From NCBI GenBank assembly GCA_900315925.1, contig ONAV01000007.1:1-55254 (forward strand): 55,254 nucleotides of DNA, written 5' to 3'. Position numbers and translations under genes: made by a program. The notes beneath the pieces were generated by a model. That model saw nothing but the letters and a program-made list of their open reading frames with translations, searched no databases and was not told where the DNA came from. Position 1 is the first letter of the stretch. The number at the start of each line of letters is the position of its first letter. Origin of the DNA: an uncultured Selenomonadales bacterium (GTDB taxonomy: Bacteria; Bacillota; Negativicutes; Acidaminococcales; Acidaminococcaceae). Positions 10,009 through 55,254 of this stretch are shown here, one piece after another.

Positions 10009-12252
10009 ATGTTTTTTAAATCATATTTGCCCAAACAATATCTGGCTGCAGCCATCGTCGCGTCTCTGTTGCAGGGCGTTGTGACCGCTGCTCCCGTGTT
10101 TGCGGAAACGACCGCGAAAACTGAAGCAACGGTTACGCAGGAAGCTACAACTGCACAGGATACTACGTCTGCGAAAGAACCAACAGCAGCAAAGGACACT
10201 GCGTCTGCGAAAGAACCAACAGTTGCAAAGGAACCGGCGGCAGCGCAGGAACCCATGCAGAGCAAATCATCAGCGGCAGCAGATAAAAGGTCTTCGCTGA
10301 CAGACACAGATGACCAGAATACCATTGACCATTCCGCCGAATCCAAACCGATTCAGAATGAATTCCTGAAAGAGGGAGAAGGCATTCCCGGCACTGAGGT
10401 TCCCTATCAGAACGAACGAAAGCTTTCCTCAGCAGAATGGAAAGAGATTGACCAACTGGAAAAAGATGTTAGGATACTCCAGCGGAAACGCGAGGATTTT
10501 TTCATAAAACACGCAAAAGAAAAAGCAGAGAAAGAGAAAGCGTTTACCAATGCGTTTAAAGGCAGACAGGAATACAGTATCGTGTTTAATCCGGAGGATT
10601 ATTCGACAAAAACAATGAATGCCAACGGCGAAGACGTAACCTTCCGTGCCTACGAGCATCTTGTGTACGTGAAAAAGCCGTATGTTCCGGAAAGCCAGAT
10701 GCTGAGCATTTACATTCCGGAAGCATACCTGAAAGGCGGAACCGTAAACGGCTTTACCGCAGAAACAGCTCCCATTTTTATGCCGAACGGCGTGGGCGGG
10801 TATATGCCGGGAACCATTGTAGAACCACAGGAAGATTCCCGTTACGGCGGAGCCAATGCCGCATTATATGCGCTGAGCAACGGTTACGTAGTGGTCTCCC
10901 CTGCGGTCCGGGGCCGGTCCCTGAAACATAAAAACGGCTATGAAACCGGTAAGGCGCCTGCACTGATTGTCGATTACAAAGCCGCCGTACGTTTTGTGCG
11001 ATTCAACCGCAAGGCCGGGCGCATTCCCGCCGGCGATACGGAAAAGATCATCGCCAGCGGTACCAGCGCGGGAGGCGCGTTGTCAGCATTGTTAGGGGCA
11101 ACGGGAAATGCTAAAGATTATGATCCCTATCTCAAAGAAGTGGGCGCAGCCAAAGAACGGGACGACATTTTTGCATCCATGGCCTACTGCCCTATCACCA
11201 ATCTGGAAAATGCAGATATGGCCTACGAGTGGATGTTCCATAACGCGAATGAGTATTACAACGCAGGCCCGGCCAGAAGAATGCCGCCTGCCGACAGCAA
11301 CGCTGCACCCGTAGGCAACGTACAGAACCGTCCGGTCAATGCACCGGCGGAAGCAATTCAAGGCACAGCCATCACGCCGGAACAGAAAGAGATTTCCGCA
11401 GAATTAAAAGAAAAATTTTCGGAATATCTGAATTCCCTTAACCTTCGCGATTCCATCGGCAACCGGCTGAACCTGGCGCCTGACGGATACGGTCTCTTCC
11501 GCGAATTCATTGAGTCCCTGTATCTGGAAGCAGCCCAGAATGCCATTGACACCGGGGAAGATATCAGCAAGACGCCCTGGGTCACTGTCAGTGAAGGAAT
11601 GGCAGTCCATATGGATTTTGACAAATACATTGCCGCGGTAAAACGTCTGAAAGGCGTTCCCGCATTCGATGCCTTTGACATGACAACGGGCGAGAACAAC
11701 GAATTCGGTACCTATGATATTGCAAATAAGCATTTTTCACGCTATGCACTGGAACACAGCCAGCTTGTTACGGTTCCGAAGGAAGAAGAAGAAAAAAAGA
11801 TTGCAGAAGAAAAGGCGCGTCAGTACGGTCTGGCAACTCCTGTTGAAAAACGGCAGTTGCGGAAAGCCAATCTGGAAGAACAAATGGAAAAGGAGAAACT
11901 GGACCTTTCCCAATACATGGCCAACGGGCTGGTCGTAAAAATGATGAACCCCATGCGCTATATCGGAGCCCGTAATGTGCAGACTGCTCCGCACTGGCGG
12001 ATTCGCCACGGCGCACTGGACAGAGATACCGCCCTCGCCATTCCAGCCATGCTGGCGGTCAAGCTGAAGAACAGTGGCAAGAAAGTTGACTTCAAGGTAG
12101 CCTGGGGCTACGGCCACGCCGGCGATTACGATCTGCCGGACCTGTTTGCGTGGACAGACCGCATCTGCAAAATCAAAGACAAAGCAGACGCAATTTTAAA
12201 AGAAGAACAGATGAAAGCGAAAGCAAAAGCAGAAGCAAAAGAAAAGGAATAA
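10009..12252 (+). CDS. Exported subtype B tannase (tannin acyl hydrolase)
   Basis: 747 residues from the ATG at 10009, which has an AAGGAG site. Tannases hydrolyse galloyl esters to gallic acid. Residues 1-32 are a signal peptide ending VFA. Residues 33-85 are low-complexity, with repeated AKEP/AKD units, probably a linker. The catalytic domain (about 185-720) closely follows the Lactobacillus plantarum tannase as I recall it: nucleophile S353 in GTSAGG, D671 in HGALDRDT and H703 in YGHAGDYD form the triad; K548, E562 and D673 match the gallate-binding Lys, Glu and Asp. The C-terminus is a charged KAKAKAEAKE tail, and an inserted charged helix lies near 590-632. Whether it stays surface-bound is unknown. 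A P repeat begins three bases after its stop codon. Confidence 0.88.
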   Translation: MFFKSYLPKQYLAAAIVASLLQGVVTAAPVFAETTAKTEATVTQEATTAQDTTSAKEPTAAKDTASAKEPTVAKEPAAAQEPMQSKSSAAADKRSSLTDTDDQNTIDHSAESKPIQNEFLKEGEGIPGTEVPYQNERKLSSAEWKEIDQLEKDVRILQRKREDFFIKHAKEKAEKEKAFTNAFKGRQEYSIVFNPEDYSTKTMNANGEDVTFRAYEHLVYVKKPYVPESQMLSIYIPEAYLKGGTVNGFTAETAPIFMPNGVGGYMPGTIVEPQEDSRYGGANAALYALSNGYVVVSPAVRGRSLKHKNGYETGKAPALIVDYKAAVRFVRFNRKAGRIPAGDTEKIIASGTSAGGALSALLGATGNAKDYDPYLKEVGAAKERDDIFASMAYCPITNLENADMAYEWMFHNANEYYNAGPARRMPPADSNAAPVGNVQNRPVNAPAEAIQGTAITPEQKEISAELKEKFSEYLNSLNLRDSIGNRLNLAPDGYGLFREFIESLYLEAAQNAIDTGEDISKTPWVTVSEGMAVHMDFDKYIAAVKRLKGVPAFDAFDMTTGENNEFGTYDIANKHFSRYALEHSQLVTVPKEEEEKKIAEEKARQYGLATPVEKRQLRKANLEEQMEKEKLDLSQYMANGLVVKMMNPMRYIGARNVQTAPHWRIRHGALDRDTALAIPAMLAVKLKNSGKKVDFKVAWGYGHAGDYDLPDLFAWTDRICKIKDKADAILKEEQMKAKAKAEAKEKE

Positions 12253-12254
12253 AC

Positions 12255-12426
12255 AAAAAGAACAGGCAACGCAAAAACGGAACCGATTGCTATTCTATGG
12301 ACTCATTCGCCTGTGGCTTCGAAACTCGGTGCTTTGCACCTCAAACAGTCGAAGCCACGGGCGTCTCATTTCGTCTCACAGAATAACGCAATCAGTTCCT
12401 ATGTTTTGCTTATGCCTGTTCTTTTT
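12255..12426. repeat. P repeat, copy 2: long palindromic element between convergent genes
   Basis: Closed by perfect 14-base arms AAAAAGAACAGGCA (12255-12268) and TGCCTGTTCTTTTT (12413-12426). Inside is a second stem (12279-12290 with 12388-12399) and a conserved core holding GGTGC/GCACC and GTGGCTTCGA/TCGAAGCCAC. It is the reverse-complement relative of 15303-15493. The closing arms end in T-runs on both strands, so it can terminate both the tannase and the symporter. Confidence 0.8.
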
Positions 12427-15113: not shown

Positions 15114-15235
15114 GAACGCTCAGGTGTTATCCCTCCCTCCCCCGAACCGCATCGCCGACTCACCGGCAAGCAAGCTTGCCGTTCGTCTCGACACGATTCG
15201 ACGGGGCGAACCCTTCCGGGATAACACCTTCGTTC
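15114..15235. repeat. Large imperfect palindrome directly after purC
   Basis: GAACG (15114-15118) plus AGGTGTTATCCC (15122-15133) pair with GGGATAACACCT (15218-15229) plus CGTTC (15231-15235). Inside is CGGCAAGC-AA-GCTTGCCG. No gene and no T-run. First of three palindromes filling the 392-base purC-carB gap. Confidence 0.75.
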
Positions 15236-15254
15236 AACATGTATTAAATGTACA

Positions 15255-15287
15255 AACAGCTGTACCATCGTGTGTGGTACAGCTGTT
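15255..15287. terminator. Hairpin between purC and carB, possible terminator
   Basis: Perfect 13 bp arms AACAGCTGTACCA and TGGTACAGCTGTT around a seven-base loop. The following sequence is AT-rich without a true T-run, so termination is uncertain. Confidence 0.45.
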
Positions 15288-15302: not shown

Positions 15303-15493
15303 AAAAAACGCTGCAGCCGGTAAGGCGTAAGCAAAACGTCGTGAGCGTTTGCGTAATTTCATGAGGTGAAATTTGCCGTGGTGGCGAGACTGTCTGAGGT
15401 GCGAAGCACCGAGTTTCGAAGCCACAGGCAAATAAGCCCTTGAAATAGCAAACGTTCACGGTTTTGCGACGCCGTACCGGCGCAGCGTTTTTT
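15303..15493. repeat. P repeat, copy 1: long palindromic element between convergent purC and carB
   Basis: Closed by AAAAAACGCTGC (15303-15314) and GCAGCGTTTTTT (15482-15493). Next stems: CCGGTAaGGCG with CGCCGTACCGG, and GTGAGCGTTTGC (15341-15352) with GCAAACGTTCAC (15448-15459). The core holds GGTGC-GAA-GCACC inside a GTGGC/GCCAC stem. The arms end in T-runs on both strands, fitting a bidirectional terminator for purC and carB. Confidence 0.82.
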
Positions 15494-53814: not shown

Positions 53815-55035
53815 TTAATTTCGGAAAAAATCTGTGAACTGTTTCCACCAGCCCGACTCACAACAGTAACTGCACTTTCCGCAGTTTTCCATGCGCGTTT
53901 CCCCAAAATAGCGCAAAATATAGTTACGCAGACATCCGTCATGATGACAGTAATCCCACATGGACGCAAGGAGCTGCAACGCCCCTTCCGGTTTTTCCTG
54001 CTGCTGCGCCAGAGCCTTACCGATTCGCAGGTCTTCTCCGCTGTAGAACAGGGTGCAGCGCGCATCCGCCCCGTTACGGCCCGCCCTCCCCGCTTCCTGA
54101 TAATACTCTTCCAGGCTCTGGGGCATATTGTAATTGATGACGAAAGAAATATCAGACTTGTCAACACCCATACCAAACGCACTGGTAGCAACAATAATCT
54201 GCACCTGACCGTTTATAAAGGCAGCCTGTGTTACCGTCCGTTCTCCCACAGACAGTCCGGCATGATAGCGGGCAGCGCTGTATCCGTGCTGCCGCAGCAA
54301 CCGGAAACACCGTTCCACATGCCGATGGGTAGAACAGTACACGATGCCGCTTTTTCCTTTTACCTTCTCCAATTCATCCAGCAGCGCCCTGTCTTTATCA
54401 GCCGGGGACTTTTTTACAAAAAACAAATTGGGACGGTCAAAGCTGCGGAGGATCACCGCCGGATCCGCAAGCCCAAGACTGTTGATGATATCCTGCCGCA
54501 CCCGGGGCGTAGCTGTGGCGGTAAAGGCTGCATATAAAGGACGCTTCGGCAGCTGTTCTACGAACGCCCGGATCTGCAGGTAAGAAGGTCGGAAATCATG
54601 TCCCCACTGGGAGACGCAATGGGCTTCATCCACTACCACAAAAACCGGCGGATTCTTTAAGGCAAAGCGGATAAACCATTCATTCTGCAGCCGTTCCGGA
54701 GAAAGGTAGAGCAGTTTATAAACACCGGTATGAATATCATACATGACTTCATTGTAAGTATGCTTACTCATACCGCTGTTGATACAGACAGCCGGTATGT
54801 TGTTCGCCTGCAGATGGGCCACCTGGTCTTCCATCAGGGAAATGAGAGGTGAAATAACATAGGTCAGTCCTGTCTTCATCAGGGCGGGTACCTGGAAACA
54901 CACGGATTTTCCCGCGCCGGTTGGCAATATGGCCAGGCAGTCCCTGCCGCTGAGAATCGTATCCACCACTTCCCGCTGCCCGGGGCGGAAGCTGTCATAG
55001 CCAAACCATGCTTTTAGTATTTTTTCCGGTTGCAA
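53815..55035 (-). CDS. recQ: RecQ-family ATP-dependent DNA helicase, short form
   Basis: 406 residues from the TTG at 55035, preceded by GGGGGTG; the frame can be extended to 55227 only through the P repeat. Helicase core: aromatic-rich FGYDSFRPGQ, Walker A K43 in PTGAGKS, DEAH 136-139 in VVVDEAHCVSQWGHDFRPSY, and QEAGRAGR. A zinc-binding region follows (C in DYCHHDGC, then ENCGKCSYC). It ends there, without the winged-helix and HRDC domains of the ~600-residue E. coli RecQ. Works in recombination and repair; lacking the winged helix, its substrate range may differ. Confidence 0.92.
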   Translation of the reverse strand: MQPEKILKAWFGYDSFRPGQREVVDTILSGRDCLAILPTGAGKSVCFQVPALMKTGLTYVISPLISLMEDQVAHLQANNIPAVCINSGMSKHTYNEVMYDIHTGVYKLLYLSPERLQNEWFIRFALKNPPVFVVVDEAHCVSQWGHDFRPSYLQIRAFVEQLPKRPLYAAFTATATPRVRQDIINSLGLADPAVILRSFDRPNLFFVKKSPADKDRALLDELEKVKGKSGIVYCSTHRHVERCFRLLRQHGYSAARYHAGLSVGERTVTQAAFINGQVQIIVATSAFGMGVDKSDISFVINYNMPQSLEEYYQEAGRAGRNGADARCTLFYSGEDLRIGKALAQQQEKPEGALQLLASMWDYCHHDGCLRNYILRYFGETRMENCGKCSYCCESGWWKQFTDFFRN

Positions 55036-55090
55036 ATAAGCACCCCCTGTAATAATCAAAATATAAAAATGAAAAAAGAGAATATAGTGA

Positions 55091-55254
55091 CTGGTAAGGC
55101 GTAAGCAAAACATCGTGAGTGTTTGCGAAATTTCATGAGGTGAAATTTGCCGTCGTGGCGAGACTGTCTGAGGGTGAAGCCCGAGTTTCGAAGCCACAGG
55201 CAAATGAACCCATGAAATAGCAAACACGAACGGTTTTGCGTCGCCTTATCGGTT
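55091..55254. repeat. P repeat, copy 3, at the right edge upstream of recQ
   Basis: Same orientation as 15303-15493. Ends CTGGTAAGGCG and CGCCTTATCGG pair; GTGTTTGC pairs with GCAAACAC; the core has GGGTGAAGCCC in place of GGTGC-GAA-GCACC, i.e. one base lost on each side. The outermost closing arm lies partly outside the window. Confidence 0.78.

Follow-up and report, generated by a model that had tools for sequence, protein, structure and literature searches.

The window analyzed here is a stretch of 55,254 nucleotides that represents the entire contig C38 of the draft genome of a rumen bacterium (G000; 2.56 Mb, 100 contigs, 88% complete). It contains three copies of a dispersed palindromic repeat, P, at the places proposed by the first-pass annotation, which had worked from the sequence alone; inspection of the sequence and covariance model matches agree on all three. 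Copy 1 is found on the plus strand at 15303–15493 (covariance model match 15314–15486, 184.3 bits) in a convergent gap between a SAICAR synthetase gene (plus) and a carbamoyl-phosphate synthase gene (minus). Its fold opens with an outer 5′ arm carrying an A-run, AAAAAACGCTGC (15303–15314), and closes with an outer 3′ arm carrying a T-run, GCAGCGTTTTTT (15482–15493). Inside these, the fold and the alignment reveal the conserved GCAAAAC (15331–15337) and GTTTTGC (15461–15467), which constitute helix 2; sequence and alignment then place the two sides of a second stem (helix 3), GTGAGCGTTTGC (15341–15352) and GCAAACGTTCAC (15448–15459), all on the plus strand. The copy is preceded by a terminator-like hairpin at 15255–15287, one of a class for which our scan gave a total of nine, a number not far above that in shuffled sequences (mean 5.0, SD 2.5). 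Another hairpin repeat (15116–15224; GGTGTTATCCC...GGGATAACACC) adjoins copy 1, and matches to it of approximately 76–84% are present in C64 and C85 of the same genome and in relatives G002, G004, G010, G012, and G013.

Copy 2, recognized by its fold and by a covariance model match of 167.0 bits, lies on the minus strand at 12252–12426, in a convergent gap between a hydrolase-like gene (plus) and a sodium:solute symporter gene (minus). Copy 3 (55088–55254, plus strand; 176.8 bits) had been placed correctly, but it is not a complete copy: the contig ends inside it, leaving it without its 3′ outer arm. The window thus terminates (position 55254) within a P copy, and repeats are frequent assembly break points. 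The earlier assignment of two copies to convergent gaps applies to copies 1 and 2; copy 3 is located at the 5′-end of a minus-strand open frame (53815–55227), the listed start of which falls within the copy.

P folds into one long hairpin of approximately 190 nt with nested stems, which are, from the outside inwards, a copy-specific outer stem, GCAAAAC/GTTTTGC, the variable second stem, a ATTCCATGA-type stem, and, innermost, a core in which unpaired bases are conserved. The calculated folding energies are −112.5 kcal/mol for copy 1 (z −13.2) and −90.8 kcal/mol for copy 2 (z −12.7), and in neither case was any of 200 shuffles equally stable. The outer stem is the longest uninterrupted stem (mean 16.5 bp), and its arms vary by copy, so that 120 copies have 81 different inner octamers. 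The arms and second stems originally quoted are correct: five of 12 positions differ in the second stem, all pairs are kept, and each copy contains one G-T wobble. Covariation of the stems, proposed from the window copies, was assessed with a MAFFT alignment, not fitted to structure, of 40 P copies from G000. It reveals a change on both sides in 37 of 53 pairs, while 96.1% of the cells are paired; 248 cells carry a both-side change, compared with a shuffled mean of 63.6 and no more than 52 cells in slid controls, and none of 500 shuffles reaches any of the five covariation measures. The excess of compensatory changes therefore persists with more copies, and the covariation of P is real. The conserved core had been described too broadly, since its flanking unpaired bases are indeed conserved, whereas the GGTGC/GCACC tip itself covaries (GGG/CCC in copy 3).

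As the first-pass annotation had suggested, the full genome and its relatives were searched with a covariance model, here built on 40 P copies from G000 and used with a reporting threshold of E ≤ 0.01. BLAST of G000 with P had returned 42 matches, antisense ones included; the covariance model returned at least 76, which is a lower bound on the count because the scoring took in 150 of the 727 first-look candidates. At least 54 of the 76 are strong single copies (≥112 bits; one truncated by a contig end), one in C49 carries a 3′ duplication (100.6 bits), 11 are longer, nested forms of approximately 230–240 nt, and the remaining 10 are weak, short, or antisense. The longer copies retain P's outer shell along with its 3′ half, with the 5′ inner arm and tip swapped for another hairpin, Q; at C12:2120 the longer form is present in G000 and the plain form in a relative (L105), in the same orientation. 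Q has 14 matches in G000 and further matches in five other genus members, and was not found in 47 genomes outside the genus. Reading of the flanks places 11 of the 14 inside a P shell (one shortened, L248) and three outside. The three shell-less examples are L250, L251, and L252 (G000:C51:91156, C51:31915, and C32:39261); as judged by eye, copies of Q also differ by paired changes in the main stem. A sequence at L016:268–456, in which the 3′ half of P is fused to a very different 5′ half, is perhaps a third hybrid form.

The search covered 61 genomes, with the best 45 or fewer candidates per genome scored under stricter filters, so that weak relatives could escape. P is present in 10 of 13 genus-mates, i.e., in 11 of 14 genus genomes counting G000, and was found in none of the 47 genomes outside the genus. 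The three negative genus-mates (G003, G008, and G009) show the greatest divergence at the symporter gene beside copy 2, with 72–74% identity versus 82–94% for the others. The core 21-mer occurs in at least 98 stretches in GTDB species genomes; the titles among the matches listed are Succiniclasticum, Acidaminococcaceae bacterium, and one uncultured Selenomonadales assembly (RUG097), and the genus label Succiniclasticum used here for the window rests on the titles of these records. At the gathering score Rfam gave no match across the window; relaxed searches with five P loci produced three hits far below gathering (E 0.27–4.1), none of them credible, and the longer P form produced none. A known structured RNA family was rejected on these grounds. 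P is also without a match in plasmid and phage records or viral contigs at the sensitivities used, and the open-access literature searched contains no description of a P repeat in Succiniclasticum. Neither Rfam nor this literature supplied a named repeat to which the copies would belong. P is a real long-hairpin repeat family, which across the 61 genomes was found in one genus only and which is undescribed in the literature searched.

The new and notable property of P is that whole copies flip in place. At the copy 2 site, G006 (L210) is oriented as in the window; G012 (L208) and G010 (L211) keep the flanks and the outer arms, with the interior reversed. Flank comparison of 42 syntenic pairs, each of one own and one relative copy, gave 25 in the same orientation and 17 inverted. 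The syntenic copy is the best match among the 66 own copies in 22 of these pairs (12 same, 10 inverted); the fact that it is not in the other 20 points to replacement, a different form, or independent insertion. A cross-genome set was assembled from 54 own copies and 98 copies of relatives, the best 98 of 119 matches, both flanks being required and pairs with one flank or conflicting flanks excluded. It yielded 67 pairs, 41 same and 26 inverted, and inversion according to copy identity was 2 of 16 at ≥95% (both from a single site), 11 of 24 at 85–95%, and 13 of 27 below 85%, where pairs within one site are not independent. At ≥85% identity, again with the best 98 of 119 matches, there are 20 syntenic sites in two or more genomes, and nine of these have an inverted member, including one in the window. 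Orientations are mutually consistent in all seven sites with at least three members; two-member sites cannot disagree. A comparison of insertion sites, recommended at the outset for strains and made here between relatives, reveals differences in both the presence and the orientation of P. Nine of the 10 named assemblies are titled MAG or uncultured, which makes assembly error a caveat for the inversions; one flip involves the other, S. ruminis DSM 9236 (L128 versus L106 and L162). When the bases beside GCAAAAC/GTTTTGC are compared to the core, in a count taken from the gapped arm alignment, 116 of 146 copies exhibit the usual phase, 30 are mixed, and none is fully opposite, from which we infer that the inversion breakpoints lie within the outer stem. 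At one further pair of loci, C83:26616 and L167, the interiors are mutual best matches and both outer arms have been jointly swapped for unrelated complementary arms.

A non-autonomous mobile element, one of three possibilities raised by the first-pass annotation, fits P best, given its dispersal, its restriction to one genus of those searched, and its presence or absence at orthologous sites. P shares with MITEs that it is dispersed, short, multi-copy, and present or absent at orthologous sites, but it has no fixed terminal inverted repeats such as would be shared with an autonomous transposon, GCAAAAC/GTTTTGC being common to the copies but internal. The longest flanking direct repeats average 5.41 bases versus 5.26 in shuffled pairs (SD of means 0.09; n = 119), a comparison that short duplications would escape, and repeats of nine or more bases flank four of the 119 copies versus 1.55 expected; target-site duplication is thus not clearly seen. 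A Y1 transposase was not found in P-bearing G000, G001 (98% complete, at least 40 P matches), G002, and G013, a reverse transcriptase was not found in 11 of the 14 genus genomes, and a resolvase was not found in P-bearing G002, G011, and G013. None of the three tracks P, and all were rejected as its mover. On balance P is probably a genus-specific, MITE-like, non-autonomous repeat, a long hairpin situated close to the ends of genes, whose fold is maintained by compensatory change and which is flipped via its outer arms. Such an element would have arisen or expanded within Succiniclasticum, settling mostly in gaps near gene ends, and its inversion would come about through strand exchange between the outer arms or through template switching there. 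With their A/T-runs these arms may, in many copies, serve as a two-way terminator, for which either orientation would be tolerated. The conserved asymmetric interior, together with the strand bias described below, may reflect recognition on the element's own folded strand, the recognized step being most simply the spreading or conversion of P.

The wobbles had been said to fit the same strand in different copies, suggesting an RNA. As a statistical bias this is confirmed: symmetric, ungapped scoring of the outer stems gives 65 G-T versus 30 A-C mismatches. These counts replace those from a gapped arm alignment (G-T 158, A-C 114), which over-extended into the A+T-rich flanks. In ortholog comparisons at ≥85% identity, from which four unusual pairs (33, 36, 37, and 49) were excluded, 53 changes from Watson-Crick lead to G-T and 23 to A-C (p = 0.0008), and 20 lead to purine-purine versus five to pyrimidine-pyrimidine (p = 0.004), although these cells are partly dependent on one another and G-T may be favored by the model alignment. 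The bias is concentrated in the outer stem, with G-T:A-C of 26:6 there and 27:17 in the inner helices, and purine-purine:pyrimidine-pyrimidine of 11:0 and 9:5, respectively. A smaller ortholog set gave G-T:A-C of 46:12, or 34:12 minus the four unusual pairs. Scored per pair, G-T exceeds A-C in 28 cases versus 10 for the reverse in G000 (p 0.005) and in 25 versus 15 in relatives (p 0.15). When 48 of 60 copies are sorted by gap, the G-T:A-C counts are 18:14 (convergent), 12:8 (tandem-sense), 15:5 (tandem-antisense), and 5:6 (divergent); in the same 48 copies no dependence on upstream gene direction is seen (read 30:22, not read 20:11; Fisher p 0.64). Since copies read and not read by the upstream gene show a similar bias, the element's own strand seems to matter, and not via a neighbor's transcript; RNA and single-stranded DNA both fit. 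The strand bias alone is no proof of an RNA, because whole copies invert relative to their neighbors and dependence on the upstream gene was not seen; in the inner helices the bias is also weak.

One could nonetheless regard each copy as a small structured RNA gene that is transcribed from its own strand, ends at a terminator formed by the outer arms, and keeps its pairs through selection on the RNA, an explanation we consider unlikely. The strong covariation agrees with it, as do the preference for G-T over A-C and for purine-purine over pyrimidine-pyrimidine in ortholog changes, the tandem G-A mismatches that replace Watson-Crick pairs in helix 5 of some copies, and the independence of the bias from neighboring gene direction, as would be the case for an independent transcript. 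Against these, a sigma-70-like promoter site is absent inside copies 1 and 2, the in-place flips part P from any outside promoter, and the bias of the inner helices (27:17) is weak; tens of diverged copies per genome, the variable presence among related species, and the lack of an Rfam match likewise speak against RNA genes. For the small RNA proposed in the first-pass annotation nothing positive emerged, promoter-like sites inside copies 1 and 2 and an Rfam match both being absent.

Comparably doubtful is the proposal that the paired changes arise mainly at the DNA level, with fold-back synthesis copying arm onto arm and no selection on a product. In-place inversion suggests that the arms exchange, the outer arms of C83:26616/L167 have changed jointly while the interior is still the best match, and double Watson-Crick changes are frequent among orthologs (26, versus 104 one-sided and two other double changes); the inner helices, moreover, exhibit little strand bias. 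But arm copying predicts equal numbers of G-T and A-C, and 65:30 and 53:23 are seen in outer stems and ortholog changes. It also fits poorly with the persistence of tandem G-A mismatches and asymmetric internal loops, and with the phase beside GCAAAAC/GTTTTGC, which is the usual one in 116 of 146 copies and fully opposite in none. P is a case where covariation by itself is no proof of a functional RNA, and its data set could separate two easily confused causes of covariation, namely selection acting on the folded product and repair of one DNA arm from the other.

There is also a small chance that P is a new small element selected as one folded strand, either RNA or single-stranded DNA, which spreads among sites and undergoes conversion between them without a recognized transposase, houses Q inside some copies, and flips often enough to leave its orientation near random between species, so that it may serve gene ends as an invertible module.

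The favored reading of P as a MITE-like repeat places it near gene ends. Neighbors were taken from heuristic gene calls for 60 copies, six others at contig edges or without a neighbor being left out; 20 copies lie in convergent, six in divergent, 17 in tandem-sense, and 17 in tandem-antisense gaps, a tally in which copy 1, actually convergent, is counted as tandem through a spurious frame. Outer stems (score ≥8) are found in 120 of 146 copies, versus 17 of 140 once 3′ flanks are exchanged between copies. In 39 of 119 copies an A-run and a T-run of four or more lie at the two ends, versus 2 of 119 in shifted windows. The sequence feature of a bidirectional intrinsic terminator (stem, A-run before, T-run after) is therefore present in these 39, and the other 80 are without runs of four at both ends. 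At 18 orthologous gaps without P, examined by eye among the matches listed, six contain a plain hairpin, three a P remnant, and nine neither. The copy 1 site has a plain terminator hairpin instead of P in G001, G010, G011, and G013, and a shortened P remnant in G007; plain hairpins occupy the copy 2 site in G001, G004, and G007, of which that in G004 alone has a clear T-run. Beside P at C32:290, a plain terminator persists. Simple replacement of a terminator by P is disfavored, since both copy 1 and C32:290 have a terminator or terminator-like hairpin alongside. The shortened remnants L212, L225 (G007), L108, and L101 have kept outer-arm sequence and lost the interior, and L157 is a shortened remnant that has lost one arm. 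Insertion of P into the loop of an existing terminator, whose old stem would now form the outer arms, was considered and rejected, as the P-less gaps, by eye among the matches listed, are without those arms; C67/L090 is suggestive only.

The terminator family named in the first-pass annotation finds partial support as a local role, since a third of the copies have A/T-runs at both ends and some P-less gaps hold plain hairpins. That P is nothing but a set of host terminators, multiplied and retained because they end transcription both ways at convergent genes, is the least likely of the explanations considered, for while it would account for the runs at both ends of 39 of 119 copies, the 20:6 ratio of convergent to divergent gaps, and the plain hairpins at six of 18 P-less sites (by eye, among the matches listed), it has no need for a conserved asymmetric interior of approximately 120 nt, co-directional genes enclose 34 of the 60 copies and divergent gaps hold six, and P may adjoin an existing terminator.

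Read as a MITE-like repeat, P invites comparison to several known systems. REP and REPIN sequences are dispersed palindromes associated with a Y1 (RAYT) transposase. P is likewise a dispersed palindrome, but it is much longer than REP, and there are P genomes without a detected Y1 transposase; a REP/RAYT system was rejected since this enzyme was not found in P-bearing G000, G001, G002, and G013. The repetitive hairpin-forming elements of sponge mitochondria resemble P in being dispersed and intergenic, and there a few complementary changes separate two types; as described in the portion of the source drawn on here, however, they are mitochondrial, have much shorter arms, and carry substitutions mostly in the loops, whereas those of P are in the stems (PMC2800124). 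YPAL, or RU-2, is a Yersinia palindromic element of approximately 168 bp with target-site duplications of 3–26 bp (PMC2229807, PMC2267715). It is similar to P in length, intergenic location, stem-loop structure, and the occurrence of filled and empty sites between relatives, and both target at or beside dyad symmetry (PMC2229807, PMC2267715). The hosts of YPAL are Yersinia and Erwinia, that of P is another, and inversion in place, a property of P, is without mention in the passages describing YPAL (PMC2229807, PMC2267715). We have not assigned P to YPAL because a target duplication like those of 3–26 bp is not clearly seen, and we liken the two by description only. ERIC (RU-1) and Correia/NEMIS elements, according to the account cited, have terminal inverted repeats, target duplication, and TA at the ends, and are like P short, dispersed hairpin repeats with a proposed action on neighboring transcripts (PMC2229807); the outer arms of P, unlike theirs, vary from copy to copy. 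In kind, P is nearest to YPAL, ERIC, and Correia elements. For the flipping itself the counterpart is found in chloroplasts, where small hairpin inversions reverse a segment between short inverted arms (PMC9887819, citing Kim and Lee 2005). As in P, repeated in-place flips occur between short arms in non-coding DNA; the relevant passages do not describe the inverted chloroplast segments as members of a dispersed repeat family, whereas each P copy is one (PMC9887819). P provides a countable case, in which the flipping of a dispersed repeat within its own sites in bacterial genomes can be traced site by site.
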